Below are positions 6,901-26,166 of a stretch of DNA of 26,166 nucleotides, one piece after another (position 1 is the first letter of the stretch; each line of letters begins with the position of its first letter). The notes under the pieces are model-generated. The model saw only the letters and a program-made list of their open reading frames with translations, had not been told where the DNA came from and did not search any database. Made by a program: the position numbers and the translations under genes. The stretch comes from a virus, in the IMG/VR virus record IMGVR_UViG_3300027770_000223, positions 1-26,166 of that record; one strand, written 5' to 3'.

Positions 6901-7751
6901 TTTCCTGATTGTTTTACTTGTCCTTCCACATTTGTATTGTTTTGTGACAAATCTGTTACTGATTTTGTCACATCAAATTTTTGACTATACATGTTTGGTG
7001 TGGCAACCAAATTACCCACTGAAATCTCATTTAATACGTTGAATTTAAATCCATGAAAATTTAAAGTAACTTGGTAATTACCACTAAATGAATTAAATCT
7101 AGCATTAAATTTTTCAAGATTTAACTGATATCTTATGGCTTGTCCATAATACCCTTTTAAAGTTAAATAAAAGGGACAAAACGGCATGTTAAAAAACGCC
7201 GAATACGGTGAGTTATTTCCAAGTTGGAATAATGCCTTTCCTTGTACGTCTTCAAGTTCAATTGTAACTGATGGTATAAAAGATGTATTTGTATTTACAA
7301 CTATACTTGTAATACCAAGTAGTCCATTATCAATCACATTTTGTGGGTCAACAACAGTATTTACAACATATGGCTTACTACCATCTTTAGGATAAATTGT
7401 TTCCTCTTTAGGTTGATTTTGACCAGTTTGATTTACAGTGTTTTTACCTGTAAGTTCATCATAATAACCATCATCCAAATATCCGTTTTTTGAAGGTTTT
7501 AAAAAATTTATTTTGGCAATCGATAATGTTCTTAGTCTATCTTCAGGACTACCTCCAATAGCCAACTTAGTTCTTGGAACTATTTCTGCCTCAAGATTAG
7601 CATACATAACCATATTTTCATGGTCAATTAATCTTTCAGATACTTTTCCAAAAGCGTCAATTGTTTTATTTGGGTCAACAACAATAATATTATTGTAGTC
7701 AAATTCAACAAGAATGTTTCCGCTATTATCTGATGTATATTTACCTGCCAT
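957..7751 (-). CDS. Giant baseplate hub-like protein with cell-wall-hydrolase-like region and C-terminal IPT/TIG domain
   Basis: This 2264-residue protein is probably part of the central baseplate/hub that the tail uses for attachment and wall penetration. A beta-rich region at about 145-245 looks like a tail hub building block. At about 1856-1905 the pattern Gly-x5-Pro followed by Phe-Asn-Gly-Pro-Tyr-x-Ile-Thr-x-Val-x-His, Pro-Gly-x-Phe-x-Thr and Gly-x-Arg matches the beta-barrel of gp27/late-control-D-type hub proteins. At about 1963-2150 a region with Gln-Glu-Thr-Gly-Gly (Glu near 2019), Asn-Tyr-Asn-Ile and a helical tail resembles glucosaminidase/lysozyme-type domains. This is weaker. A Pro/Thr linker then leads to an IPT/TIG Ig-like domain (about 2178-2262; Ser-Pro-Ser-Thr-Gly, Gly-x-Gly-Leu). 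The middle 1500 residues are Asn/Ser/Thr-rich and not recognised. The start overlaps the upstream gene by 11 bases, implying coupled translation. T4 gp27 is about 390 residues, so this is greatly enlarged. Confidence 0.7.
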   Translation of the reverse strand: MAGKYTSDNSGNILVEFDYNNIIVVDPNKTIDAFGKVSERLIDHENMVMYANLEAEIVPRTKLAIGGSPEDRLRTLSIAKINFLKPSKNGYLDDGYYDELTGKNTVNQTGQNQPKEETIYPKDGSKPYVVNTVVDPQNVIDNGLLGITSIVVNTNTSFIPSVTIELEDVQGKALFQLGNNSPYSAFFNMPFCPFYLTLKGYYGQAIRYQLNLEKFNARFNSFSGNYQVTLNFHGFKFNVLNEISVGNLVATPNMYSQKFDVTKSVTDLSQNNTNVEGQVKQSGNNKQASNSKDAIVEQLLTEKGYQKIVEVYSEYKSKGLLAPNFPELTLIQLSAKLDNFEKTIADSYKKADLEPLTNIRTYKENLKKYFDEIRAAQNSWFNTFLNPRPIILIDKTLVYTFRENLDTAAKSGAETKLKEIVERYNGLLANNPTLGNKSKTEIKNSIKYDIFKKDVNFNLIDWKETTKRQTGVTTATAESIKKIIETYKDLFKLTFDIETVDIGIANIQVPIPKAIVMPSFFVFDGEERFDKTISRMEAEANKKLSEYETLLTADLAKKIESSATGIGFKPTVRNITAVIMASAEAFIRLMDDVHTNAWNVKYDPIRKQAILDNPSSAPSTETKDKVPISSGAQQENQGLSTSQIPVYPWPQFFVETPEDKKGRFQLKYIADPSIVDQTQGWNYQVWPEVEFVEEFLRGLVKRADNPTSQPTTDSNTVTNLININAIEFPQTGIAYQNKEEIKFFYEIWERQLLTSHYSGLIRANQNQVSDLITLNIETETNNIVTSLGVSSPYLALKLKNFNYNSNDYQSFLKDISNQGTGRAYQDFIKDFYVTPYIKGITENSFSILNVTNLGKTPQNSPQSPALTQLVKNASNEPLIVDTYPFTNNEWVTKNMNLSSNNQNQYVYNTNKVLTVFQDRNVIANFNDVYNYTINRPVTNFSYLNVSIPAITNSEELNAFYFKRKPKDFIPSEGYCYFVSPNKNTGNQIPTILNTSKKTTSILNTPYFINAIQNGVYNVRGKDKHPYIQAAYLFLNSLPLASLRERYQSLNSENLDYISSCLKKFGAIHKMPYPWVLKFGSLWYRYKKYKESGIDILDGIWSNFNYTENYDPITNSIDKEYTFTNTGEVNETNIVLQEEVQIDEGRPTIKLQPGFYPKVVNDFNVFYNGYDLYSGYTSEEIQKSVNNGLKIFNLQGSNISGIQGYKALNLKTWSVLLPDKIDDYLSGSDCAPKDNTKEEKYFVVPSFGAKFNQTKSECFIGNTTVVDLTNNPSMYNGSVRLLWGSSNYGYFDNDQTVKPEPDSYLNFIDPKTTEQTPMSLLSVNTYSKIEEIFSVFDKNVLDKFEQEFLNFCKPVTDIDLGLITFEPIDASQIDMNSGFKNFQLLFRHLMTINPKDKTTSEQIYFEDTINNQLTNYVNIIKSFLEYDVILRYGNPSNYNRRVFDSFISLNTTPIVDSPIQFNPYVVGSLPSKSGQTTLQSSKINYPSEWLALETEVGFSTIPELVYKNTGSFITDFFIDNNIEFSVDNIVICNQLIKMYATQKLNNTSLNSVEFKADLYLYLSDMTNLQYNFFNTTLTKVRATLPNYQQLPEKTIQSAVDGQVGKVETYESFKAINDKWIAGSDFKTKTLFEDFMFLDRASRNIGDTILVDIFSLKNTINANSLNMKMSVYTLISGILIKNNFVIMPLPAYVNFYNVQDVNGLIQDNAEGSLAFANNMWGTFLNVDYRNSSPKMVCFYASKPSGLLDLPKGNFRFRDDSFEMRRASENPLIEDLKNKKDWAVSNKCVGFNVDIGIRNQNVFYSFSVSQDNGKATSETIQTYLDMSSNFTGRNVATQNVSLYNLYKQRSYQCQVVSFGNAMIQPMMYFNLRHVPMFNGPYVITEVSHTITPGQFQTKFSGTRQGIYDLPSIDNYLQSINQNLLTKIEDMIKTKKEEAINVTITNENKTAKTSQKSDNTKATTNSCTTKLAPAYEKYIVENEVQTNLTPQQLVDAINSRTNNEILKTIIYSICYIRTFPLQETGGVFKASNYNIANIELVQDYGATSDYFSPTYYCLNVGGQNNSNSESKPIAAFANLDFFINFMISRLSNNVNRILQIGLPKYYSCYWVPNGVSESAYDVKNYTTAISSFKSALNSAKSAGLNSSKNKELLEGSLPLVETTKTINNLNIAPSPTPTCPPPTINSFSPSTGTTGTIITIKGVGLEFTTGVTINGILVTTGVSILSGEMIVVSIPKPAQNVLQENNIVISSSKNIVVTSASKLVYVPK

Positions 7752-8064
7752 AATAATAAAAATGATTTTCTAATGAAGCTTTATAATCTTGTAAAGATGG
7801 TATTAAAGGAAAAGGTATTATTAATACCGCACCATCATATATATAATTTTCTAACCCTCCAAATTGAGGATTTGCTTGCAAAATTAACCATCCAAAATAA
7901 GGTGAGTTATAATATTCTTGAGAAACTTTATCTAACCTACTTTTAGCAACTTTATATATATAAGCTTTATCAGTTGTCTTTTGAGGCAAATAAACAAAAG
8001 GAACTACTGTTTGTTCTCCATTTATTAAAAATTCGTTATATCTATTATAGTAAGGAAATCCCAT
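7741..8064 (-). CDS. LysM-like baseplate wedge protein (T4 gp53-like)
   Basis: This is a 107-residue protein. Residues about 33-88 read as a LysM-like/tail-protein-X fold: Val-Ala-x-Ser-Arg-Leu-Asp-Lys-Val-Ser at the first strand and helix, then Tyr-x2-Ser-Pro-Tyr-Phe-Gly-Trp-Leu-Ile-Leu-Gln-Ala-Asn-Pro, then Ile-Tyr-Asp-Gly and the terminal strand Leu-Ile-Ile-Pro-Phe-Pro. This is the signature of phage wedge proteins such as T4 gp53, which joins neighbouring wedges in the baseplate. T4 gp53 is nearly twice as long, so only the core is kept here. The start codon shares a base with the stop of the 1685-aa gene (TAATG), and the 3' end overlaps the hub-like gene by 11 bases. The three are therefore one tightly coupled translation unit. 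The assignment to a wedge/hub LysM protein is fairly sure, equivalence to gp53 less so. Confidence 0.75.
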   Translation of the reverse strand: MGFPYYNRYNEFLINGEQTVVPFVYLPQKTTDKAYIYKVAKSRLDKVSQEYYNSPYFGWLILQANPQFGGLENYIYDGAVLIIPFPLIPSLQDYKASLENHFYYYGR

Positions 8065-11000
8065 TAATTTAATTTTATTTTAGAAACATATACATTTGTT
8101 CCAACCGAAGTGTTCCATGTTTTTGTGTTAGTATTTTGATTTCCAGTTTGTGTTGCGTTATTCAAACTGATAATTAATTTTTTTTGTTCACTCCCTGGAT
8201 TATTTGAAGTTTTATAAGTAAACATTCTTTTTTTGTTTTTTGGAAAAGGCGTATATACCACAAAATCCTTAAACGCACCTTTTTCAATACTATTTAGGAA
8301 TTCTGTTGTAATACTATTTTCATTTTCAAATTTAGGTTTTGCAATACTTAACCAATAAAAAGAAAATTCTTTGTCTATATCAGTATTTCCATTACCAAGT
8401 ATAGTTGAATTATTCATAATATCACCAATAATTTCTTTTTTAAACGTTTGAAAATTTTTATCGTCAATAATGTCGTTTGATAAAATCATATACATTCGTC
8501 TGAAAGTTTTATTACTAAATTCTTCCAATTTACTAAATGGATTAAAAACCTCTTTTAATAAAGTTTTTGCACTTGTATTATCATTTTCACTATTTCCACC
8601 ATATAATAAATAACCATTATAATTTGTTGACTCATATTTAAACGACACCGGATTTTGTGCTAATTGATAATACCCAATTAATCCATCTCCAATTTTTTTA
8701 ATATCTTGATTTAATTCGTCTAAAGTTGTACCAACACTTCCTTGATAAACATCTGTTGTTCCGCTAATATTGTATATTACAGTATTGCCATTTTTTTCTT
8801 GATATCCATCAGTTCCTTCCGTTGGAGTTGGTGGATACAACAATACGTTAGCCTTACTAAGATAATGTATATAATTTTGTTGAGCGATTGTGATACTTTG
8901 TGTTATCTGTGTTATATCGTTTTGATATCTTGATTTTTTATTTTTAATAAAATTACCATAATTATGCTTTAACTGCCTAATAACTTTTTCAGAAAACCCA
9001 AGTTTTTTTTGTGACATGTACTTTATAAATCTATCCTGTTCTTCTTCATTATCGGTTTTAATGTTAGATATTAAATCGTCAAATACTTTATCTATTCTAT
9101 AAGCTAATCCATTCTTTTTACTATCTAAATTTGGTTTTCCAATTAATTGTACATTAAAGATTGTATTTGATAATAAATTTCCATCAACATATAACCTTTC
9201 AGCCGTCCAATTTTGAAGTAACGCATTATTATATTGTTTAAGAGATTCTTTACTTTTATTAATAAAATTGATAAAATAATTTTGAGATGCTTCGGAAAAA
9301 TTATCCATAAATGTTGCATAAGATATTGTTCCTGAAGTGTCTCCGCTTTGATTTTTTACTGTTGAAATTATTGACCCGATAGTATCACCATTAGATTGTC
9401 CATTATTGTTTTGAACTTGATTTGTTGTTGGTGGAACAGTTTTTAGATAATCTGAAAAGTTTTTATCTATGATTTTTAAACTGTCATCAGTTACATCCGC
9501 TCTATCATCATACATTTCAGTATTAGCATAATAATTAAACGATAAAGCATTTTGAAGTTTATCAACAGCCGTTTTTAATCCGCTACCTCCAACAAAATTA
9601 AATCCTAATGTAATGTTTGCAATCATTGGTTGTATTCCAATTCCTTCAGGATTTAAATCTAAATTTTCATAAGTTATATTTAAACTTGTTGGAATAATTT
9701 TGGTATTATAAAAATCACCGACTCTTAAAACTAAAACAGGTGGAGAACCAAATGCTGTGTTTGTTGCATCATTGTACTGTAATTCTGGTTTACCGTCAGG
9801 TGAATTTTGTTTTATTGTTGGTATTGTATCTCCAGGTCTCATACACTGTTGTAAAAAAGTAAGTCTAGAATTTAATCCTTCAGGTGTTGTAGAATGAAAA
9901 GCCGGTTGAAAAAATTTTAATTTTTCTTTTAGATTATCATAAACCATAGGTGTATCCTGTTTTATTGTTTCAAAATAATCACATTCTGACAATAAGGCCC
10001 TTAAGACTTTTTTTGTTATATTATCATTAGGTTTAGGATTTTGTTCTAAATTTTGTGGTTTTGTTGTTGCCGGAATTCTTGTTCCAACTAAAACATCTGG
10101 TGGGTTTTGTTGTGTTACATTTACTGGTTCTTGTGGTGGTGGTTGTTTTAGCGTTGATGTTATAGATGATATGTACGCTCTTCTACAAGCCATAGCATTT
10201 GTAGTATAAATTTCTTTAGAAATTTTTTGATTGTCTCCATCATTGTCACTACAACTAACTTTTTCTGCAGGCATAAATTTAGCAGATTTTGCATCATATT
10301 TTAATACTTCAGCATTTTCCCCTAAAGCCTTTCCTTTATTAATAATTAATCTTGTTGTTTTAATCCACTTTTGGATGGTGGTGTTTGATGAAAAAAATAT
10401 AAACGCAGAATCAATTCTTTTTTCAGATAGTGTTTGATTATATGTTTTTGATGCTGGAGGTGAAGTTGTTCCATCAATAGTTATTGTTACAGTTCCTTCT
10501 GTATTATTAGTTAATTGTTTGTCTAGTTCATTTATAAAATCATATAACTTATCATAGTTAGATGTTACAACGCTATTAAAAAATGATGAGGTTTGTTCTG
10601 AAGTGCTTGGTGATTGTTGTTGATAATATGTTTTATTACCTGATGATGTATATCTACTATATTCGGTATCGTAATTAACACCAAAAGTTTTTGGATAATC
10701 ATTTCCAAAATAAAACCCCAAATTTTCAAAAGTTTTAAATGTTACTTCTGGCGCAGAATTTGCACCATTACTTGAGGTAACCGGTTGACTAGCGCTATTA
10801 CCAGGAGAGTTATTACCAGATTGTACTGTTTGAAGTGAGTATTGTAGTTGTTCTTTTGTTAAATTTTTTGATGAAATCGCATCTTGTAAGTTTTGTAAAT
10901 CATTTGGTGGTATTGTATAATATTTTTTAGCCAATTCATATAAGTCATATTTTAAACATCCTGCAAAAAAAGATTCTAACATTTGGTCTATTCTTGCTTT

Positions 11001-13121
11001 GTTTGTTTCATTTGTTAATATTTTATTTACAATAACATTTAAAACTGATGGATGGTCAACAACAACTTTCCATTGTAAATTACCACCTCTACTTGTATTT
11101 TTGTATGTGTATACCGGTTCTGGTCTTCCAATAAAATCGGTGGTGTTCCAATTCGCACTAACGGTTTCAGTAAAAACTAATCCATACGGAGGAAACCACA
11201 TTACTCTACCCCCATTTGGTCCTCTTTCACATATTGCCAAATCAGATACCGTATATCCAGGTGAACCACCTGTTCTCCACGCCAAATTTTCCAATGAAAA
11301 CATATATTTCTTAGCATAAATTTGAGTTGTGTCTCCAATTAAATTACTTGAGTCCTGTCCACCTTCTCGTTTATTTGGTGCAATATTAAGATTATATGTT
11401 TTGTCAAAAACAGAATAACTGAATTTTCTACCTTCAGTTGTCATACCATCTGTTTTTTGTAAATTATTATATTGAAGATACGGTATGTCTTTCGCAAAAA
11501 CTCTACAATATTCTGTGCCAACCTCATTTCCTATCGAACCAACGTAACTTAATACTCTTGAACCTTTTGTTAATTCTTTATATCCATCATTGAACACTTT
11601 ACTTACTTGGTCAATAGCGTTACCTACGTGTTGTAATCTTCTTCCTCCGCTTGGTTGACTATCAATAATTCTTTGGGTATCATCAAGTATTGAACCTTCC
11701 CTAAATGTTCTATTTGTTGACTCTGTTGAGTCGTATGATGTTTGTTTAAAGTTTTGACTTTGATTTGTTACTTCTCCACCAATACCAACTTTTTTACCAG
11801 CATTACCTTTATACTTTGGAGATACCCAAGTAAATCCTCCTTCAATATTACCACCATCACTATACGTAGGACCATTAGCACCCAACCTTACGTCTTGGCT
11901 TGGTCCCTCATATAACTGAGCCATTTCTTGTGGACCATATACAGGTGATTGTTGTTCTTGACCAAATGAATTAACTGGTAAGTCACCACCAGGTGAAAAT
12001 ATTCTTGACGGGTCAGATGTTTTTGAACCAACATAAAAATCACTATTGTTAGTTGTTGAGCCTACAAGAACTCCAGCTACTCTATCAAATAGAGTTCTGT
12101 CGTAATCAGGTTTAAATTTGTTATAATCTAAATTACCAAATAATCTTGATTTTTGACCTCCTCCTGTATTATTTAAAAATAATTGTGAGCCAGTTTTATC
12201 ACCACCTAATAATCTATTAAAAAATTTACCAACGCCATTATTTGATTGTCTAAAAGCGTTTTGTAATTGTGCTATAGTTGTTGGTTGTCCTGGATTAATA
12301 CTTGTATCAAAATACGAACCCGGTATTGTTGATACCGGTAATATACTTCCTGCTAACCTTAAAGCATAATTGGTTGCAGCTAATACAGGATTGGCCGGCA
12401 TTGTAATAGTATAATCAGGTTCTATAAGTGGAACCCTACCTGTAACTAAATTCAATACGTCAGTACCACTTCTAACATTAAAAACGTTAGTTCTTCCTAC
12501 TGTATTTTTTGCTATCTCCCTATTAATGTTATTTTCAAAAGATTCTTTTAATTTTACAGCACCTAATCTAGCCAAAAAAGAGTCTTGACTTAATAAACCA
12601 TTACTACCTAAAGGGTCTTTAGTTAATAAAATAGATGCTGGAGAATATGATGAATTAACTATTGATGCCGGATATGGTTGACTATTTGGTGTTCTATCTT
12701 GGTCAGGTCTTACCGTTTCAAAAGATGCTATAGCATTTGCCGCATCAAAAATTTGTGTTGTATCCGCATAAGCATTTAATGGTCTCCAATTTCTTGGAGC
12801 ATCATATCCCTCATCAATTATATGAGCGTCTTGGAACCCATATTCACCTTCATTTGATTTATTATTTAACAAAGAACCTGGGTCAGGGACTTGTTTATAT
12901 CCACCATCATTACCATATTGGTTTAATGGAAATAATTTATTCGCAAAGGAAGGTTCATCAATAAGTTGGTCCGGACTATCTATAACAGATAAATCTGATT
13001 GAATTACTTCGTAATCAATTGGGGGGTCAGCTTTATTGGGGGACTTGGCATAAGGTACTAAGTTCCTTGTTATCAATTTTTTTCTAAACCCCGCAGAATC
13101 TATCAGTAGTGGACTTGGCAT
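8064..13121 (-). CDS. Very large baseplate structural protein
   Basis: This is a 1685-residue protein with no transmembrane segment or signal peptide. The first 600 residues are rich in Asn, Gly, Pro, Ser and Gln and look extended or modular. Two more ordered stretches stand out. Residues about 607-700 hold Trp-Phe-Pro-Pro-Tyr-Gly, Phe-Ile-Gly-Arg-x-Glu-Pro-Val-Tyr-Thr-Tyr and Val-Asp-His-Pro-Ser-Val-Leu-Asn. Residues about 1125-1210 hold Thr-Ser-Leu-x-Ile-Thr-Tyr, Asn-Pro-Glu-Gly-Ile-Gly-x-Gln-Pro-Met and a Gly-Gly-Ser-Gly-Leu loop, a pattern I associate with tube-initiator/baseplate proteins. It lies directly after the tape measure gene and is coupled to the gp53-like and hub-like genes. 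That is the place of T4 gp48/gp54/wedge genes, so baseplate is the best call. A TATTTAT box precedes the start by 23 bases. No single T4 protein is a clear counterpart. Confidence 0.7.
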   Translation of the reverse strand: MPSPLLIDSAGFRKKLITRNLVPYAKSPNKADPPIDYEVIQSDLSVIDSPDQLIDEPSFANKLFPLNQYGNDGGYKQVPDPGSLLNNKSNEGEYGFQDAHIIDEGYDAPRNWRPLNAYADTTQIFDAANAIASFETVRPDQDRTPNSQPYPASIVNSSYSPASILLTKDPLGSNGLLSQDSFLARLGAVKLKESFENNINREIAKNTVGRTNVFNVRSGTDVLNLVTGRVPLIEPDYTITMPANPVLAATNYALRLAGSILPVSTIPGSYFDTSINPGQPTTIAQLQNAFRQSNNGVGKFFNRLLGGDKTGSQLFLNNTGGGQKSRLFGNLDYNKFKPDYDRTLFDRVAGVLVGSTTNNSDFYVGSKTSDPSRIFSPGGDLPVNSFGQEQQSPVYGPQEMAQLYEGPSQDVRLGANGPTYSDGGNIEGGFTWVSPKYKGNAGKKVGIGGEVTNQSQNFKQTSYDSTESTNRTFREGSILDDTQRIIDSQPSGGRRLQHVGNAIDQVSKVFNDGYKELTKGSRVLSYVGSIGNEVGTEYCRVFAKDIPYLQYNNLQKTDGMTTEGRKFSYSVFDKTYNLNIAPNKREGGQDSSNLIGDTTQIYAKKYMFSLENLAWRTGGSPGYTVSDLAICERGPNGGRVMWFPPYGLVFTETVSANWNTTDFIGRPEPVYTYKNTSRGGNLQWKVVVDHPSVLNVIVNKILTNETNKARIDQMLESFFAGCLKYDLYELAKKYYTIPPNDLQNLQDAISSKNLTKEQLQYSLQTVQSGNNSPGNSASQPVTSSNGANSAPEVTFKTFENLGFYFGNDYPKTFGVNYDTEYSRYTSSGNKTYYQQQSPSTSEQTSSFFNSVVTSNYDKLYDFINELDKQLTNNTEGTVTITIDGTTSPPASKTYNQTLSEKRIDSAFIFFSSNTTIQKWIKTTRLIINKGKALGENAEVLKYDAKSAKFMPAEKVSCSDNDGDNQKISKEIYTTNAMACRRAYISSITSTLKQPPPQEPVNVTQQNPPDVLVGTRIPATTKPQNLEQNPKPNDNITKKVLRALLSECDYFETIKQDTPMVYDNLKEKLKFFQPAFHSTTPEGLNSRLTFLQQCMRPGDTIPTIKQNSPDGKPELQYNDATNTAFGSPPVLVLRVGDFYNTKIIPTSLNITYENLDLNPEGIGIQPMIANITLGFNFVGGSGLKTAVDKLQNALSFNYYANTEMYDDRADVTDDSLKIIDKNFSDYLKTVPPTTNQVQNNNGQSNGDTIGSIISTVKNQSGDTSGTISYATFMDNFSEASQNYFINFINKSKESLKQYNNALLQNWTAERLYVDGNLLSNTIFNVQLIGKPNLDSKKNGLAYRIDKVFDDLISNIKTDNEEEQDRFIKYMSQKKLGFSEKVIRQLKHNYGNFIKNKKSRYQNDITQITQSITIAQQNYIHYLSKANVLLYPPTPTEGTDGYQEKNGNTVIYNISGTTDVYQGSVGTTLDELNQDIKKIGDGLIGYYQLAQNPVSFKYESTNYNGYLLYGGNSENDNTSAKTLLKEVFNPFSKLEEFSNKTFRRMYMILSNDIIDDKNFQTFKKEIIGDIMNNSTILGNGNTDIDKEFSFYWLSIAKPKFENENSITTEFLNSIEKGAFKDFVVYTPFPKNKKRMFTYKTSNNPGSEQKKLIISLNNATQTGNQNTNTKTWNTSVGTNVYVSKIKLN

Positions 13122-17609: not shown

Positions 17610-20600
17610 TTAGATATTTTCAAACGAAGCACCTGTTGGTGTGATGAAGAACTCAATATCGATGAATTCTAACGCCTTCGTAGGTTTAAGATATATTTTA
17701 CCTGTTAGTGTATTTCTATCCAAATCTTCTGGAGAAGAAGAAACTGTTACACGGAAATCGTAAAGACCTCTATCTCTTCTGATTGAATCCAAAATAGGAT
17801 TAACACTATCTAAGAATTGTTGTCTAACGATTTGGTCGTTTTGTTCAAACAATAATCTTACAGCTACAGCAGATATTAACTTACGAGCTTGTAGTAATAA
17901 TCTTCTTACATTCAACCTATTCAACGCTGATTCAGTTACTTGTAAAGTTTTGTTACCCCAAATTACAGTTCCTACATCGGAGAAAGTAGCGATTGGGTTA
18001 ATTCTACCTTGATAAAGTGTATCTCTATCTTCTTGAGTTAACTTACGTCTAGCTTTAATTGAATTTACAAGACCTCTTGTGTAACCCGCTGATGCGAACC
18101 AAGGGAATGCAATGTTATCTGTTAATGCTAAGTTTCTACAAACTTCACCTGTTGGTGGAAGATATATTTGTGTGTTATTTACAGTATCTCTTACAAGTAT
18201 CCAAGGATAGTAAGTCGCTGTATAGTTTGAGTCAATCCCTGTGTTATCAAGGTTATCAACAGCCTCTTGTGGATAAATCACGTCATATTGACTTGTTCCG
18301 TCAGGAGTATACATGTTATAATCTGGTGTTGTTGCGATATACACAGAATCTGCTCTTTGATATTGAACCATACTAATGGCTTCTTCTACTAAGTTTGAGT
18401 TATTAACGTAATCGATACCTGGAGTTACAAAAACATTAATGTTTGTTGCTTCAGGATTTGCAAAAGTTAAAATACCAAGTAAGTAAGCGTAGTAGTCAGA
18501 GTTTGCAAAATCTTGAGTATTGTTTTGAACAACAATTCTCTTGAACATTCCGTCTCCTGTTGCTGTTGGGTATCTTGTTGAAGGTGCCGCTCCTGCTAAA
18601 TAACCGGAAGCACCTAATTGGAATCTGTCTTGGTTTGTTCTATATTCTCTATAGATATCCCATCCATCAAATCCACCAGCAAAACATATTGTATATTTTC
18701 TTGAGTAAATAAAATAATAAGGATTTTCTTGAGTTTCTGGGTCAAATCTAAAATCTGCAACTCCACACTCAAAAGCAGTTTCACCACTTGTTAATAATTC
18801 AGAACTTGAAATTGAAACTACAGTAGCTCCTGAGTCCATATGGAATCCTTTACTTAAGTAATTCCATGGCGCAGAATCAGTTGCAGTTTCCCACCCAACT
18901 ACAGGGTTTTGTTTACCTTTATATTCTAAGAAAGACTCATCGATTCCAAGTTGACTTGAGAAACCTAAATAAGTTCTTCTAACAATATCACCTCCAGATT
19001 CAACAGCATTAGAACCTCCTGAACTTGTTCCGAATGGAGGGTCGAATACTACTTCACCAGGATAATAATATTTTGTTTTATATACAGGGTATGGGGATGG
19101 ATTATCAACACTCTCATATTCTCTTTGAGTATACCCATAAAATCCACAAGGAAGAGCATCTACAGGATAATCATCTGCCATTTCCAACATAATGTATTTT
19201 GAAATTAATGCAAATTCACCATTAGAAGAGCCTATCTTTTTAGCTACAAAACTATTTAAACCTGGGTCCATTGTACAATTTGTGAACTTTTCAATGACAA
19301 TAGGATTTGCATCTGTGTCGTAGAAATTTCTAACTAATACATCAAACGTCATATTATTAAATGATAAATTTGCGATTGAAACTTTAATTTCTGTATTTGC
19401 CGCAGCTCCATCAGATATTGAAATAAATTTAAATAATCTATAAACTTTATTACCTCTTAATTCTGAAACTAAGAAAGGAGTTTCTGGTGATTGATATTTT
19501 TCTAAATTCCAAGCAATAGATGAAGGGTTTTGACTTCTTGCATCTGGAAGAGCAATTAAGTCACATTTTAAACCACGAATATAACCTTTGTTATAAGCAT
19601 AATTTAATGTTGCTTGATAATACTCCTCAACAAAAATGGGAACCTGAGTTCTGTTTTTACCAAAGTTATCAATACCAAGAACCTTTGTAATATATTTTGA
19701 AGAAGAGGCTAACATTGAAACTTCAAATGAGAAAGTTTTACTATCGTTAGTAATACCTGAAAGTAAAAATGTTGCATATGGGTTTTGAGTTATACCTGAA
19801 TACTGACCACTACAAACTAATTGTAAATCAGTCAATCCACTAACCTCATAAACAGGTCCATGGTCAACACTGCTAGCATTATTAGAATATAACGATATAC
19901 CTCTTGAACGAAGTGTTGAAACAACCATATTATTAAAATTACTATATGCTGTTCCTGTGAAAGAATATGTAGCTCCTGATGTTGTACCTGTAAAAGTATT
20001 TGATGCTCCAGAAACTAAAGATGTTACAACGTAATCAAAAGAATATCCTGTATAATCATTACCACTTGTAATGTCAAAATTAGCGTAAAGCCAAGGGTCA
20101 TTAGAAGATGCGGTTAAATCATTTGTTGCCAAATCATTTGTATCACATCCATAAACATTAGTAATTGCGGAATATGTTGCTGTAAGTCCAGTATAATCGT
20201 CTTCAGGTATTGCACCATACATAACAACAGTTGTTGCTGATGTTTGAGGACTATCGTAGATAGAATTAATTATATTAGTAAAATCTTGAGATAGTGTCGA
20301 TACACTACCATCAGATAATCTATATTGTTTGTTTAAGTTAACCAAAATTTCATTAGGTAAAGTAGTTGTGAATGATAACGTATTTGCCGATGAATTACCT
20401 GTAAAATTTGCTGTCCAAGTATCCACAGATATTACAGAATCAATATCAATTGTTGTTGGGTCAACATTAGCAATCAAACTAAGACTCCACGAAGGACCAG
20501 CGTCATAACCAGATAATCCTAAAACCCTGGTTACAAATAATTGATTTGATTGTTGTAAATAAGATTTGGCAATATAAGCCGCTTCGTATTTAGGGATTTG

Positions 20601-20819
20601 AGTATTCACAAACTTAATGGGTTCTGTACCCCCAAAGTAAGCTTGGAATTCATTGTAATTAGTGATAAAGATTGGTTCGAATGCAGGACCTTTTATAGTT
20701 TCCCCTACTAAACCTAACGTAGTAACACCGACACTTTGAGCTACAAATGATAAATCTGTCTCAGAAGTGTATACGCCTGGTGATACATATACTTTTTGAT
20801 TTGCTTGTGCTGTTGCCAT
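17610..20819 (-). CDS. gp18: Contractile tail sheath protein (T4 gp18-like, enlarged)
   Basis: This 1069-residue protein surrounds the tube and contracts to drive it through the host envelope. The N-terminus (9-22, Tyr-Val-Ser-Pro-Gly-Val-Tyr-Thr-Ser-Glu-Thr-Asp) and residues up to about 112 (Gly-Leu-Val-Gly-Glu-x2-Lys-Gly-Pro-Ala, Phe-Gly-Gly, Ala-x4-Leu-Gln-Gln-Ser-Asn-Gln-Leu-Phe-Val-Thr-Arg-Val) are classical. The C-terminal domain from about 880 onwards is classical too (Arg-Ile-Asn-Pro-Ile-Ala near 930, Val-Ile-Trp-Gly-Asn-Lys-Thr-Leu near 950, and the helix Arg-Leu-Asn-Val-Arg-Arg-Leu-Leu). Roughly 760 residues lie between, much more than in T4 gp18 (659 total). They include Ser/Thr/Asn/Gly-rich beta-type sequence at about 120-370 that probably forms extra outward-facing domains. 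It is transcribed away from the small regulator gene, with a TATTTAT box 41 bases before the ATG, and is followed by a hairpin. Confidence 0.93.
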   Translation of the reverse strand: MATAQANQKVYVSPGVYTSETDLSFVAQSVGVTTLGLVGETIKGPAFEPIFITNYNEFQAYFGGTEPIKFVNTQIPKYEAAYIAKSYLQQSNQLFVTRVLGLSGYDAGPSWSLSLIANVDPTTIDIDSVISVDTWTANFTGNSSANTLSFTTTLPNEILVNLNKQYRLSDGSVSTLSQDFTNIINSIYDSPQTSATTVVMYGAIPEDDYTGLTATYSAITNVYGCDTNDLATNDLTASSNDPWLYANFDITSGNDYTGYSFDYVVTSLVSGASNTFTGTTSGATYSFTGTAYSNFNNMVVSTLRSRGISLYSNNASSVDHGPVYEVSGLTDLQLVCSGQYSGITQNPYATFLLSGITNDSKTFSFEVSMLASSSKYITKVLGIDNFGKNRTQVPIFVEEYYQATLNYAYNKGYIRGLKCDLIALPDARSQNPSSIAWNLEKYQSPETPFLVSELRGNKVYRLFKFISISDGAAANTEIKVSIANLSFNNMTFDVLVRNFYDTDANPIVIEKFTNCTMDPGLNSFVAKKIGSSNGEFALISKYIMLEMADDYPVDALPCGFYGYTQREYESVDNPSPYPVYKTKYYYPGEVVFDPPFGTSSGGSNAVESGGDIVRRTYLGFSSQLGIDESFLEYKGKQNPVVGWETATDSAPWNYLSKGFHMDSGATVVSISSSELLTSGETAFECGVADFRFDPETQENPYYFIYSRKYTICFAGGFDGWDIYREYRTNQDRFQLGASGYLAGAAPSTRYPTATGDGMFKRIVVQNNTQDFANSDYYAYLLGILTFANPEATNINVFVTPGIDYVNNSNLVEEAISMVQYQRADSVYIATTPDYNMYTPDGTSQYDVIYPQEAVDNLDNTGIDSNYTATYYPWILVRDTVNNTQIYLPPTGEVCRNLALTDNIAFPWFASAGYTRGLVNSIKARRKLTQEDRDTLYQGRINPIATFSDVGTVIWGNKTLQVTESALNRLNVRRLLLQARKLISAVAVRLLFEQNDQIVRQQFLDSVNPILDSIRRDRGLYDFRVTVSSSPEDLDRNTLTGKIYLKPTKALEFIDIEFFITPTGASFENI

Positions 20820-20903: not shown

Positions 20904-20912
20904 TAAATGGTG

Positions 20913-20924
20913 AGAATTAATTCT
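20913..20924. promoter_or_regulatory. 12-bp perfect palindrome, candidate operator of the small regulator
   Basis: AGAATTAATTCT is its own reverse complement. It starts 9 bases after the -7 element, so it would cover the transcription start. That is a usual site for autorepression by a dimeric ribbon-helix-helix protein, which the next gene encodes. The left half recurs at the end of the gene (21093-21101) within the direct repeat. Confidence 0.45.
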
Positions 20925-20939
20925 GCCTTTTTTCTACCT

Positions 20940-21101
20940 ATGAAAACAAAGAAGGAAATAAAGAACATTAAAATATCACCAGAGTCACATGATGTGTTAA
21001 AAAAATACTGTGACAAGAGGGGTATTAAGATTTATAAATTTTTGGAAAATTTAATTTTTGAAAAGTGTAAAGAGAAAAAAGATATCTATGGTGAGAATTA
21101 A
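20940..21101 (+). CDS. Small ribbon-helix-helix (Arc/MetJ-type) DNA-binding protein
   Basis: This is a 53-residue basic protein. After a Lys-rich start, Lys-Asn-Ile-Lys-Ile-Ser (8-13) fits the DNA-contacting beta strand. Pro-Glu-Ser-His-Asp-Val-Leu-Lys-Lys-Tyr-Cys-Asp-Lys-Arg-Gly forms the first helix and turn, and Lys-Phe-Leu-Glu-Asn-Leu-Ile-Phe-Glu-Lys the second helix. This matches short RHH repressors, which bind as dimers to palindromes. I chose the ATG at 20940 over that at 20907 because the latter lies only 4 bases after the promoter element and would add a hydrophobic N-terminus foreign to the fold. It is the only plus-strand gene in its neighbourhood: divergent from the sheath gene and convergent with the 346-aa gene, whose stop overlaps its own by 2 bases. 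Its likely role is autoregulation and perhaps timing of the sheath promoter. Confidence 0.75.
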   Translation: MKTKKEIKNIKISPESHDVLKKYCDKRGIKIYKFLENLIFEKCKEKKDIYGEN

Positions 21102-22140: not shown

Positions 22141-22554
22141 TTATTTTTTTGTTACAAATATTTTATCTTTAGAATTTATCATATTAACTTCATTTGCAGA
22201 ATAAACTGGTTCTTCACTATCTTTATATACAAAAGTATCAAACATATAAGGATTGTATGTTACAACTTTTCCAAATGGTTTTAGAGGTAAATCATCACAA
22301 GGAAATTCACAATAATCTAATAATTTACCTATTACAAATGCGTGAACATTTTTACTTTTTTCACTCCTAACTTTTTCCTTACCCCCTTGTCTAACTCTAA
22401 ATTCAACATCACCAAGTTTAACATAATCGGCATGCATAATAACTTTACCGTCATATGTTACTGAAAAAGTATGTTTATGTAAATTATAATAAACCATAAC
22501 TTTTTTACCTATAAATAAAGAATCAAATTGAGATTCGTTAATAACAATTTTCAT
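22141..22554 (-). CDS. Conserved-looking phage protein of unknown function
   Basis: This is a 137-residue soluble protein. After a short N-terminal strand (Met-Lys-Ile-Val-Ile-Asn-Glu-Ser-Gln), residues about 18-72 form a recognisable block: Val-Met-Val-Tyr-Tyr-Asn-Leu-His-Lys, Gly-Lys-Val-Ile-x-His-Ala, Phe-Arg-Val-Arg-Gln-Gly-Gly and Lys-Asn-Val-His-Ala-Phe-Val-x-Gly. I have a memory of short phage hypothetical proteins sharing 'N-L-H-K ... G-K-V ... R-K-N-V-H-A', but no function is known to me. The basic, His-containing block could bind nucleic acid; this is speculation. It is separated by 6 bases from the upstream gene and 2 bases from the downstream gene, so it belongs to the neck operon and may be a virion or assembly factor. 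Confidence 0.65.
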   Translation of the reverse strand: MKIVINESQFDSLFIGKKVMVYYNLHKHTFSVTYDGKVIMHADYVKLGDVEFRVRQGGKEKVRSEKSKNVHAFVIGKLLDYCEFPCDDLPLKPFGKVVTYNPYMFDTFVYKDSEEPVYSANEVNMINSKDKIFVTKK

Positions 22555-22560
22555 AATATT

Positions 22561-23073
22561 TTATATTCCTCTAAATTCGTTTTCATTTACAGGAGTTGCA
22601 ATAACCGTTCTATAAAAAGGACGGACTCCCCCGTACGTATGTTTATTATCTGAAACCACCCTACCATCATCAGACACACTATAGTATCTTACTTTTTTCT
22701 CATTTTCATAATATCCGATATAATCTCCAAACTGAATATCAACACCCATTTCACTAAGAGTTTGTTGATAAATAGAGAATCTTAAATTTCCTGGCTCATC
22801 TTGTTGAACTTTTGAGGTTCCAAGTTTTTGATTTGTTGGAGCCATAATCTGAACATAACCCTTAAGTTCAATAGGGGACAAAAATTGAATTCCGTCTTTT
22901 AATGCTTCACCATAAACATCATCCGTTTTTGTTTTATACCTATCAACACGATACAATATTATTGTAAAATTCATATCTCCCAATAACCATTCTTCACCCA
23001 TATTAATATCTAAATTATAATCTTCATCACCAAAGAATTTACCGAGACGTGTTACTGGAACTAATTTTTGCAT
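22561..23073 (-). CDS. Candidate neck/head-closure protein
   Basis: This 170-residue protein has mixed beta structure. Notable parts are Gly-Glu-Glu-Trp-Leu-Leu (25-30), Thr-Ile-Ile-Leu-Tyr-Arg-Val-Asp-Arg-Tyr-Lys (37-47), the beta segment with Pro-Ile-Glu-Leu-Lys-Gly-Tyr-Val (67-74), Phe-Gly-Asp-Tyr-Ile-Gly-Tyr-Tyr (115-122) and, near the end, Asn-Lys-His-Thr-Tyr-Gly-Gly-Val-Arg-Pro-Phe-Tyr-Arg-Thr (about 142-155). 'G-D-Y-I-G-Y' followed by 'Y-S-V-x-D-D-G' and 'P-F-Y-R-T' is a pattern of phage neck/head-closure proteins such as those between portal and tail. It is the first gene of the three-gene minus-strand neck group, with a TATTTAT box 31 bases before the start. It could correspond to T4 gp14; this is not proven. 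Confidence 0.6.
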   Translation of the reverse strand: MQKLVPVTRLGKFFGDEDYNLDINMGEEWLLGDMNFTIILYRVDRYKTKTDDVYGEALKDGIQFLSPIELKGYVQIMAPTNQKLGTSKVQQDEPGNLRFSIYQQTLSEMGVDIQFGDYIGYYENEKKVRYYSVSDDGRVVSDNKHTYGGVRPFYRTVIATPVNENEFRGI

Positions 23074-23097
23074 ATTATGTTTATTTTTTCCTTATTG

Positions 23098-23104
23098 ATA
23101 AATA
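23098..23104 (-). promoter_or_regulatory. TATTTAT box, candidate late promoter of the neck operon
   Basis: On the minus strand AAAGTATTTATCAATAAGG, with the box starting 31 bases before the ATG at 23073. It lies in the 58-base divergent region between the neck and SET genes. Toward the SET gene the same region carries only a weak plus-strand candidate (TTG at 23095 and TATATTTA at 23118-23125, 20 bases apart). Confidence 0.45.
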
Positions 23105-23131
23105 CTTTATTATTAATTATATTTACTCCAA

Positions 23132-23497
23132 ATGTTTATCAAACCACCAACTAAAATAGTGTTGAGGAAAAGTCCAATACATGGTCTTGGGGTTTTTGCG
23201 TCATCAAAAATAATCAAAGGGGAGGTATTAGAAGAATGTTCTTTCTTACCTTTTCCACAAACAAAGGAGGAAAAAATTCCCGTTTTTTCAAACTACGCAT
23301 TCTGTTTTCCAAAAGGTGAAATGTGGACAACACATGCCCTTGTAATGGGGTATGGTTCATATTATAACCATTCTAAAAATGCAAATGCTGATTGGTATAC
23401 AAAAAATGAAGAAGGTATTTTTGTTTTTTATTCAATAAATGATATCGAAGAGGGAGATGAGATTTTCACAAATTATAACAACGGAGTAATTTTTTAA
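23132..23497 (+). CDS. SET-domain protein, putative protein lysine methyltransferase
   Basis: This 121-residue protein is essentially only a SET domain, which transfers a methyl group from S-adenosylmethionine to lysine. The visible signature has three parts: Gly18-Leu-Gly-Val-Phe-Ala (cofactor-binding turn, with Ile-His before it), then Tyr78-Asn79-His80-Ser81 followed by Asn-Ala-Asn-Ala (cofactor and knot), then the C-terminal Glu-Gly-Asp-Glu-Ile-Phe-Thr-Asn-Tyr115-Asn with the catalytic tyrosine. Pre- and post-SET cysteine clusters are absent, as is usual for viral and bacterial SET proteins. The stop codon shares a base with the start of the SNF2 gene (TAATG), so the two are translated together. 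It is transcribed away from the neck operon. Substrate unknown: a virion protein, a host nucleoid protein, or the SNF2 partner. The family call is confident. Confidence 0.85.
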   Translation: MFIKPPTKIVLRKSPIHGLGVFASSKIIKGEVLEECSFLPFPQTKEEKIPVFSNYAFCFPKGEMWTTHALVMGYGSYYNHSKNANADWYTKNEEGIFVFYSINDIEEGDEIFTNYNNGVIF

Positions 23498-25257
23498 TGA
23501 CTGAATTTGCAAAATCTTTAGAATCAAAAGCGATGTCCATCCTTGAAACATATGATGGAGGTAATAACTATATTTTTGAATTAAAAAGAAAATCTCAAAT
23601 CAATAAAAAGTTTTATCCAACAAGAAGTCAATCTGAATATATAATTAACTTCCATGACAAACCCCCAAAGATTGCAAAAAAGTGGGTAATATTAGATACA
23701 TATTTTGCGCAAAAATTGGCGGACGATAAATTATATACACAAATACCTGAAAAAGTTTGGATTGAAAAATTATTGGCTGATAAAGAAAAGGCTTACCATG
23801 TTTGGGGAAAAGTTTTTGAAACAGAACAACTTCACGATTTTTGGTTACCAAAGGTTTCAATTATTAAAGACAACACAGTAAAAGATATTGTTATTAATTA
23901 TGACAAATATTCAAATCGTCCTCCATTACCACATCAAAAAGAAGCGATTCAAAAGTTAGTTGAAAATAAAAAATTTATTTTGGCCGATGATATGGGTCTT
24001 GGAAAAACCACCAGTACGATTATTGCCGCTTTAGAGTCTGGTGTAAAAAAAGTTTTGATAATTTGTCCGGCAACTTTAAAAATAAATTGGAAAAGAGAGA
24101 TTGAAAATTATACAGATAAGTCGGTGTTTATTTCCGAAGGTAAAAACTTTAGTACGGAACACGATTTTGTTATTATAAATTACGACATAATAAAAAACTT
24201 CCATGAAATTAAAAAGAAAGATAAGTCAGAAATTGTTAGAGCCAATTTTGATTTGGTTATTATTGATGAAGCACACTATATCAAAAATGTTACAGCACAA
24301 AGAACAAAACTAATTAATGATTTTGTAAAAAATATTGATAGGTTGTGGTTACTATCTGGTACACCGATGACATCTAGACCTATTGATTATTTTAATTTAT
24401 TAAGTTTGGTTGATTCTCCCACCGCAAAAAATTGGATGGCATATGCCATTAGATATTGCCAAGGATATCAATTTAATGTCGGGGGTAGAAAAGTTTGGAA
24501 TGTTGTCGGAGCATCGAATTTGGAAGAATTAAGAGATAGGACAGCTCCAACAATCTTAAGAAGATTAAAAGAAGATGTTCTTGATTTACCCGAAAAAATA
24601 ATCACACCAATCTATCTTAGATTAAAATCTAAAGAATATGAAGAAGTTATGGGTGAATATTATGATTGGTATGATAAAAATCCCGAAGAATCAAAATCAT
24701 TAACAATTCAGTTTACAAAACTTACAAAAATACGACAAATAATTGCAAATGAAAAAATAGAACAGACAATTGAATTGGCTGAAAATATTATTGAACAAGG
24801 AAAAAAAGTGATTGTATTTTGCAACTTTACAGAATCTTTAGAAAAGATAACCCAACACTTTGGTAAAATTGCCGTTAAGTTAAATGGGACAATGTCAAAA
24901 ATAGAAAAACAAAACAGCGTCGACCAATTTCAAGAAAATGAAAAAATAAAAGTATTTGTTGGTAATATTAAAGCTGCAGGTGTTGGTATTACACTAACCG
25001 CCGCTGAAGCTGTCATAATGAATGATTTATCTTTTTTACCTTCAGACCACTCACAAGCAGAAGACCGTAGTTATAGATACGGTCAAAAAAATAATGTTTT
25101 GGTTTACTACCCAATATTTGAAAACACAATTGAAGGTATCATATATGACATATTAAATAATAAAAAACAAGTAATTGCCACAGTGATGGGAGATAATCAA
25201 AACTCCGCCAACGCAGCTGAAGAAATATTACAAAGAATTAATGAGTTAAGGCAATAA
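23497..25257 (+). CDS. SNF2-family DNA helicase/translocase
   Basis: This is a 586-residue superfamily-2 ATPase. Motifs appear in order: Pro-His-Gln (145-147, Q motif-like), Walker A Asp-Asp-Met-Gly-Leu-Gly-Lys170-Thr-Thr, motif Ia Ile-Cys-Pro-Ala, Walker B Asp257-Glu-Ala-His, motif III Ser287-Gly-Thr-Pro, motif IV Val-Phe-Cys-Asn-Phe, motif V Lys-Ala-Ala-Gly-Val-Gly-Ile-Thr-Leu (492-500) and motif VI Gln520-x3-Arg-x2-Arg-x-Gly-Gln530. 'Met-Gly-Leu-Gly-Lys-Thr' with 'Arg-x-Tyr-Arg-x-Gly-Gln' is the SNF2/SMARCAL1 form rather than UvsW. The N-terminal 140 residues are not recognised and probably bind DNA or a partner. Such phage enzymes are thought to remodel forks or recombination intermediates, or displace proteins from DNA. 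No accessory HARP or nuclease domain is seen. It overlaps the SET gene by one base. Confidence 0.88.
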   Translation: MTEFAKSLESKAMSILETYDGGNNYIFELKRKSQINKKFYPTRSQSEYIINFHDKPPKIAKKWVILDTYFAQKLADDKLYTQIPEKVWIEKLLADKEKAYHVWGKVFETEQLHDFWLPKVSIIKDNTVKDIVINYDKYSNRPPLPHQKEAIQKLVENKKFILADDMGLGKTTSTIIAALESGVKKVLIICPATLKINWKREIENYTDKSVFISEGKNFSTEHDFVIINYDIIKNFHEIKKKDKSEIVRANFDLVIIDEAHYIKNVTAQRTKLINDFVKNIDRLWLLSGTPMTSRPIDYFNLLSLVDSPTAKNWMAYAIRYCQGYQFNVGGRKVWNVVGASNLEELRDRTAPTILRRLKEDVLDLPEKIITPIYLRLKSKEYEEVMGEYYDWYDKNPEESKSLTIQFTKLTKIRQIIANEKIEQTIELAENIIEQGKKVIVFCNFTESLEKITQHFGKIAVKLNGTMSKIEKQNSVDQFQENEKIKVFVGNIKAAGVGITLTAAEAVIMNDLSFLPSDHSQAEDRSYRYGQKNNVLVYYPIFENTIEGIIYDILNNKKQVIATVMGDNQNSANAAEEILQRINELRQ

Positions 25258-25320: not shown

Positions 25321-26166
25321 ATGCCTGTAATACCAGAACCAGAAAGGTCGAAAATATATACAAGAGTTAGACATTTATTGGGGGCTCCATTAAGAAGTGT
25401 TGAAATTGAAGATGAAATGATGGATTCTTTAATGGAACTTTCTATTCAAGACTATGAACAATATACTTTAGATTGGTTGATAGAAAGTCAGTGGGTTAAC
25501 TTAGTTAATTTAAATATGTCTGAAAAATCCGTGGCAAATGCATTGATAACAAGAACTATGGATTTTGAACAACAATTTGCTTATTCATATTCAAAAATTG
25601 TTGGTTTACAAACAATGGGTCCATGGGTTTTAAAAAAGGATTATTTTGTATTAAGTGCCAACACACAGAATTACGAGATACCTGCGGGTAGAGAAATAAA
25701 TGAACTTCTTTGGTTTAGTAATCAGGCTTGGACCGCATTTGGTTTGGGTGGGTTTGCTGGTGTTGGTGGTGGTATAGGACTTGGTGGTGACCAAGCAGGA
25801 TTTGCTCAAATGGGTAATCAAGGTTCTTATTATATGATGTCAGGATTTGATTATTTAATAAGAATGCAAGAGGCCAATATTCTTAACAGAATACTAGGTG
25901 GTTCATTAACATATAGAGTAACAGGACTACCCGATGGTAAGAAAAATGTTATGTTATATAATACACCGGGAGGAAGATTTAATTGGAATAATTATAGCAT
26001 GTATGTAGGAAAGGCTGTTTGGTATTGGTATTATGATGTAGGACCTGATGATAGAGCGGCATGTTTAAAACAAAATAAAGATGTAATAAAATTACCTTCT
26101 GATGTTCCTCTTGAAGAATTAAATTGGGTTGATTTAAATGTACCAGCACAACAATGGGTGAGAAGA
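25321..26166 (+). CDS. Neck protein, gp13-like (partial, cut by the window edge)
   Basis: The frame is open for 282 codons to the last base, so the 3' end lies outside the window. The N-terminus has Arg-Ser-Lys-Ile-Tyr-Thr-Arg-Val-Arg-His-Leu-Leu-Gly-Ala-Pro (9-23), then Val-Glu-Ile-Glu-Asp-Glu-Met-Met and a helix with Asp-Tyr-Glu-Gln-Tyr (about 46-50), followed by Trp-Leu-Ile-Glu-Ser-Gln-Trp. This short helical 'adaptor' beginning and the later Trp/Tyr-rich beta part fit large phage neck/connector proteins (T4 gp13 type). Residues about 141-164 form a glycine-rich low-complexity loop (Gly-Leu-Gly-Gly, Gly-Val-Gly-Gly-Gly, Gly-Leu-Gly-Gly). I chose 25321 over the in-frame ATG at 25297 because a TATTTAT box sits between them. 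It is transcribed with the SET and SNF2 genes or from its own box. Structural protein is likely, exact equivalence open. Confidence 0.65.
   Translation, partial: MPVIPEPERSKIYTRVRHLLGAPLRSVEIEDEMMDSLMELSIQDYEQYTLDWLIESQWVNLVNLNMSEKSVANALITRTMDFEQQFAYSYSKIVGLQTMGPWVLKKDYFVLSANTQNYEIPAGREINELLWFSNQAWTAFGLGGFAGVGGGIGLGGDQAGFAQMGNQGSYYMMSGFDYLIRMQEANILNRILGGSLTYRVTGLPDGKKNVMLYNTPGGRFNWNNYSMYVGKAVWYWYYDVGPDDRAACLKQNKDVIKLPSDVPLEELNWVDLNVPAQQWVRR

Follow-up and report, generated by a model that had tools for sequence, protein, structure and literature searches.

SET-domain proteins and SNF2 ATPases are textbook chromatin families, and in viruses of bacteria the two are here found encoded side by side, probably on a shared message. 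The arrangement belongs to a large clade of uncultured T4-related freshwater bacterial viruses, in which the SET gene has been repeatedly lost or swapped; it is an accessory, selectively maintained and probably co-expressed neighbour of the SNF2 gene rather than its obligate partner. The reading favoured here, with a probability of about 0.6, combines a UvsW-like SNF2 protein of the phage core with an accessory, co-expressed SET methyltransferase that the SNF2 protein does not need.

The window, i.e. the whole stretch of DNA that was analysed, is a virus record of 26,166 bp (IMG/VR IMGVR_UViG_3300027770_000223) with T4-type tail genes for sheath, tube and baseplate hub, together with a weak baseplate wedge match. 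The closest cultured relatives of the sheath protein include Flavobacterium phages, an observation that would fit a Bacteroidota host but does not prove one. The sheath protein itself (17610-20819, minus strand, 1,069 aa) matches sheath families in its final ≈ 290 aa only, the N-terminal remainder being a long extension. A small Arc/ribbon-helix-helix-like gene on the plus strand (20907-21101) interrupts the minus-strand tail module; it is strongly kept in relatives (77-100%) and has its own conserved element upstream. The features surrounding the SET gene are compiled in Table 1.

Table 1. Features of the SET slot and its borders in the window
Feature	Position	Strand	Remarks
Divergent conserved protein, left border of the slot	22561-23073	-	170 aa; 66-99% identity in the loci used
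Promoter-like element TTGATAAATAC...TATATTTA (TTG, 20-nt spacer, TAnnTTT)	23095-23125	+	conserved across loci
SET-domain protein, predicted vSET-like minimal protein-lysine methyltransferase	23132-23497	+	121 aa; PF00856; accessory gene, fixed slot
SNF2-family DNA translocase	23497-25257	+	586 aa; PF00176/PF00271, phrog_62; single-copy core gene
Right neighbour, possible head-tail adaptor	25324-26166	+	281 aa in view; phrog_211 E=0.023

The SET protein and its relatives

A first-pass annotation made from the letters of the window had recognized a minimal SET protein by its Asn79-His-Ser and Tyr115 motifs, and this assignment could be confirmed. The open reading frame matches PF00856 with E=4e-13 over the entire profile (1-105/105; 50.1 bits, the curated cut-off being 22.4), and N79-H80-S81, Gly20, Glu110 and Tyr115 are invariant among 36 phage SETs. 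The best PDB sequence match is 1n3j, the vSET protein (2.4e-9), and the best fold match of the AlphaFold model (pLDDT 89) is 3kma, again vSET (TM 0.74/0.84, E=1e-8), such that model and PDB fold comparison place the protein in the SET (beta-clip) fold. Since dN/dS ranges from ≈ 0.02 to 0.32 and is mostly < 0.2 across 26 pairwise comparisons, the SET gene is a real gene under purifying selection. Taken together, predicted fold, motifs and selection suggest an active protein-lysine methyltransferase.

The closest known counterpart is vSET of PBCV-1 (A612L; 1n3j/3kma), likewise a virus-encoded SET-only enzyme of ≈ 120 aa and the best match in both sequence and fold. According to the title of its PDB entry vSET acts on histone H3; it is, however, an enzyme of a Chlorella virus directed to Lys27 of a eukaryotic histone, whereas the SET protein described here comes from a virus of bacteria. 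Small stand-alone SET proteins also occur in prokaryotes, the bacterial and archaeal relatives being 32-42% identical; among them, Go1-SET of Methanosarcina methylates the chromatin protein MC1-alpha, as cited in PMC3980110. These cellular proteins differ from the phage SETs in two respects: in the tree the phage sequences separate from the 80 sampled cellular ones with moderate support (83), and none of the 80 bacterial and archaeal SET loci had an SNF2 relative within ≈ 5 kb.

Among the best 80 viral SET loci, SNF2 was adjacent in 71, the contig edge intervened in 3, and in the residual 6 the SET gene lay elsewhere without SNF2. About ten phage loci outside the clade, those of Stenotrophomonas phages included, hold a SET gene in accessory regions with SNF2 not nearby. 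The Stenotrophomonas phages Ps15 and Moby (Menderavirus; PMC9025141) are tailed viruses as well, and their SET proteins are ≈ 28-31% identical to the present one, but the genes reside among small hypothetical genes and have no adjoining SNF2.

The SNF2 protein as a probable stand-in for UvsW

The same annotation had read the downstream gene as an SNF2 ATPase with a complete set of helicase motifs, and this also held: both motor lobes score above cut-off (PF00176 7e-31, 107.8 bits; PF00271 2.4e-17, 63.6 bits), phrog_62 is matched with 6e-118, and the motifs DDMGLGKT, DEAH, GTP and QAEDR..RYGQ are invariant or nearly so among 24 SNF2 proteins. The structure model of the SNF2 protein is poor (pLDDT 58.5), too poor for a fold-level placement among the SNF2 subfamilies. 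The protein may resemble the SMARCAL1 subfamily. An assignment to the defence helicases ZorD, DpdE or DrmD was rejected, as the NCBIfam scores remained far below the cut-offs (ZorD 98 of 1500 bits, DpdE 98 of 500); the PADLOC matches cover the shared motor region. Phage SNF2 'DNA helicases' of phrog_62 have the same motor, and relatives are present in 2,044 of 50,697 phage records. Among the matches listed, however, the phrog_62 proteins of cultured phages reach at most ≈ 32% identity to SNF2 of the window, and the SET slot was seen in the uncultured clade only.

The SNF2 gene is single-copy in 18/18 large relatives. Eight of eight records, of which three measure ≈ 320 kb, have its product as their sole Helicase_C protein; T4 likewise gave a single Helicase_C match, UvsW, a protein of nearly the same length (587 vs 586 aa). 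T4 UvsW, on the other hand, has the domains UvsW_N and UvsW.1, both of which are missing from the SNF2 protein, a member of a different SF2 family; the protein can therefore be a functional stand-in at most, and its inclusion in the UvsW family was discarded. UvsW_N was undetected in 8/8 relatives, some of which may be fragments, with the T4 control positive. Weak RecA-family matches compatible with UvsX, below the curated cut-off, were found in six of the eight. With no other superfamily-2 DNA translocase detected in these genomes, SNF2 most likely takes on the task of UvsW, and it probably stands in for the T4 protein. Snf2 in place of UvsW has been proposed for other jumbo myoviruses (PMC7824862), and the present analysis widens this proposal to a further group of large phages related to T4.

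Occupancy of the slot

Three scans of IMG/VR viral contigs with SNF2 proteins gave 152 distinct SNF2 loci, the set being defined by retention of the divergent 170-aa gene. The order 170-aa gene (minus strand), slot, SNF2 (plus strand) is common to all of them. SET is present at 69 of the 152 loci (one copy being degenerate) and absent from 83, an occupancy of 45% that is probably too high, the sample having been seeded on SET-bearing phages; when only this window served as seed, SET turned up at 17 of 80 loci. Wherever the slot is occupied (69/69), SET lies directly upstream of SNF2 on the same strand. The adjacency recurs beyond this phage, with order and strand constant. The 83 SET-less loci comprise 77 nearly empty slots (< 120 bp) and 6 with a minus-strand orphan only. 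No plus-strand gene other than SET was seen in the slot across the 152 loci, which leaves the slot unsupported as a generic cargo hotspot, and in 66 clade records searched whole every SET was located within it.

Two kinds of minus-strand gene were observed on the side of the slot facing the 170-aa gene. One is an orphan family of 102-113 aa without matches (L010:5612-5935 and similar), the other a gene of 299 aa that appears endonuclease-like by eye (L157:4055-4954).

The first-pass annotation had proposed a coupled two-gene system, and had taken a pairing restricted to close relatives, or either gene found alone, as outcomes that would speak against it. An obligate system is rejected on the presence/absence counts: the pairing is confined to one phage clade, SNF2 occurs without SET at 83 of 152 loci, including L005 with its ≈ 99% identical flanking proteins, and SET occurs without SNF2 at the roughly ten phage loci mentioned above. 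The annotation had also concluded from the TAATG overlap of the two genes that they are made together. The SET stop and the SNF2 start do share TAATG, with a 1-bp overlap at 23497, and at 53 of 69 junctions the SET stop and the SNF2 ATG overlap by ≤ 4 bases or abut; however, it is a weak sign of special coupling, since an identical overlap joins two tail genes of the window (7741-8064 and 8064-13121) at 8064.

Gain, loss and exchange of SET

On the SNF2 tree the presence of SET changes at least 17 times, 12 of the changes being forced by well-supported branches, a count that carries no direction of gain or loss. Three near-identical phages illustrate the process, one having the slot with SET-A, one with SET-B and one empty. 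L005 resembles an L006-like locus from which SET has been cleanly removed, both the promoter element and the ATG of SNF2 being intact, and the window combines flanks as in L005 and L006 with a SET of a different type. In L286 the SET gene is degenerate. For L005 and L286 loss is the simplest reading. Duplication is seen as well, with two SETs in tandem in L082, L337 and the L106 record. L357 and L044 have closely similar SET genes (dS 0.44) despite widely diverged SNF2 genes (dS 2.99), which points to SET transfer. A search for SNF2 residues that track SET presence found none among 12 independent pairs (475 tests); with the best residue following SET in only ≈ 3-4 of the 12 pairs, coevolving SNF2 residues were dismissed.

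A promoter-like element in front of the slot

At 146 of 152 loci the sequence TTGATAAATA occurs exactly once, on the plus strand, in the interval that separates the 170-aa gene from SET or, where SET is missing, from SNF2; it is kept both with and without SET in the slot. In 129 of these 146 loci exactly 20 nt lie between it and a following TAnnTTT box. The -7 box of the Bacteroidota sigma-A promoter is TAnnTTTG (PMC9723704). In its sequence, the promoter-like element of the slot resembles this promoter type. The TTG of the Bacteroidota sigma-A promoter lies 19-21 nt upstream. Because SET sits between the promoter-like element and SNF2, the simplest inference is that both genes are expressed from one message. 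A T4-type late promoter, TATAAATA, was considered as well and abandoned, its occurrences in the window equalling chance expectation. Should the promoter-like element be genuine, transcription would begin ≈ 2 nt from the SET start codon (23118-23134) and the message would be nearly leaderless.

Proposed roles and competing explanations

According to the favoured reading, SNF2 would move along double-stranded DNA at the expense of ATP and would branch-migrate or regress intermediates of recombination and replication. With a host-type promoter element on one side of the SET slot and the start codon of SNF2 on the other, both genes would be read as one message; selection would retain SET in some lineages, while others would have deleted, duplicated or swapped it. 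The SET product would most likely methylate lysines of a DNA-associated protein, be it a host nucleoid protein or a phage or host replication protein, as an optional, host-specific adjustment. A substrate of this kind is the leading guess, by analogy, because the characterized small SETs act on DNA-associated proteins. Phage-encoded HU was dropped as a substrate after PF00216 gave no match in 11 large records.

An independent accessory SET, active in anti-defence or host takeover on a substrate unrelated to DNA or SNF2 and simply borrowing the promoter of SNF2, would account for the repeated loss and swapping and for the isolated SETs that other phages keep in unrelated accessory regions away from SNF2. 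Such a gene would, however, be expected at other sites too, yet every SET of the 66 clade records sits in this one slot, and we hold this explanation to be possible at less than even odds. Because a slot in which SET is the only gene seen exceeds the expectation for random cargo, some functional link with SNF2 is conceivable, and co-expression with a loose tie of this sort is possible. A tighter arrangement, in which SET methylates SNF2 or the target protein of SNF2, and SNF2 works alone where SET is missing but is modulated by SET where the latter is present, is rather unlikely. The invariant position and strand of SET (69/69), the 53 tight junctions, the lack of any other plus-strand gene, the several SET lineages that hold the same slot and the tandem copies in three lineages would all suit it. 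Against it one has to set the 83 SNF2 loci devoid of SET, the other phages with SET and no SNF2 nearby, the 12 independent pairs in which no SNF2 residue follows SET presence, and the 0/80 result for bacterial and archaeal loci; the slot specificity itself is also explained by one ancestral insertion followed by losses and recombination.

It might finally be argued that the two genes are chance neighbours, or that SET is a decaying, functionless remnant, as the degenerate copy in L286 and the clean deletions could suggest. Strong purifying selection and the invariance of the catalytic residues in 36 proteins make this highly improbable, and for SET as a whole the selection data refute a functionless remnant. 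Going beyond the favoured combination of a core SNF2 and a dispensable SET, one may tentatively imagine a SET enzyme, supplied from the message of the translocase, that methylates lysines of a DNA-bound target (a host nucleoid protein, a replication protein or SNF2 itself) and so exerts an optional, chromatin-like control over phage DNA metabolism, although this is a doubtful extension. In the literature searched, no functional study was found on the part that lysine methylation plays for a phage. In this context the natural pairs with and without SET at near-identical loci offer a clean comparison for the role of phage lysine methylation.

Flanking genes

The pair had been placed between phage neck genes. 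What stands of this description is a weak phrog_211 match (head-tail adaptor, E=0.023, 6/15 members) for the plus-strand gene after SNF2, a gene for which no match was obtained in 50,697 phage records. The 170-aa protein had no family or PDB match, and nothing informative matched the flanking 346-aa protein. With the phrog_211 match alone in its favour, a neck identity of the flanking genes was not adopted.

Instead, SNF2 has its constant neighbour in a core gene that follows it directly, a superoxide dismutase fusion present at 116 of 119 loci. In relatives it sits between SNF2 and the right neighbour gene; it is absent from the window and from its closest relatives (L001, L005 and L006). In L008 (7785-9314) it encodes an Fe/Mn superoxide dismutase (PF02777 5.5e-40, PF00081) followed by a C-terminal domain of ≈ 270 aa without family match, in which a D...K-type pattern can be discerned by eye and which might be a nuclease. 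In the window, a member of the Phage_L5_gp82 family (PF25735, 1.1e-30) adjoins the slot on the minus strand at 22141-22554.
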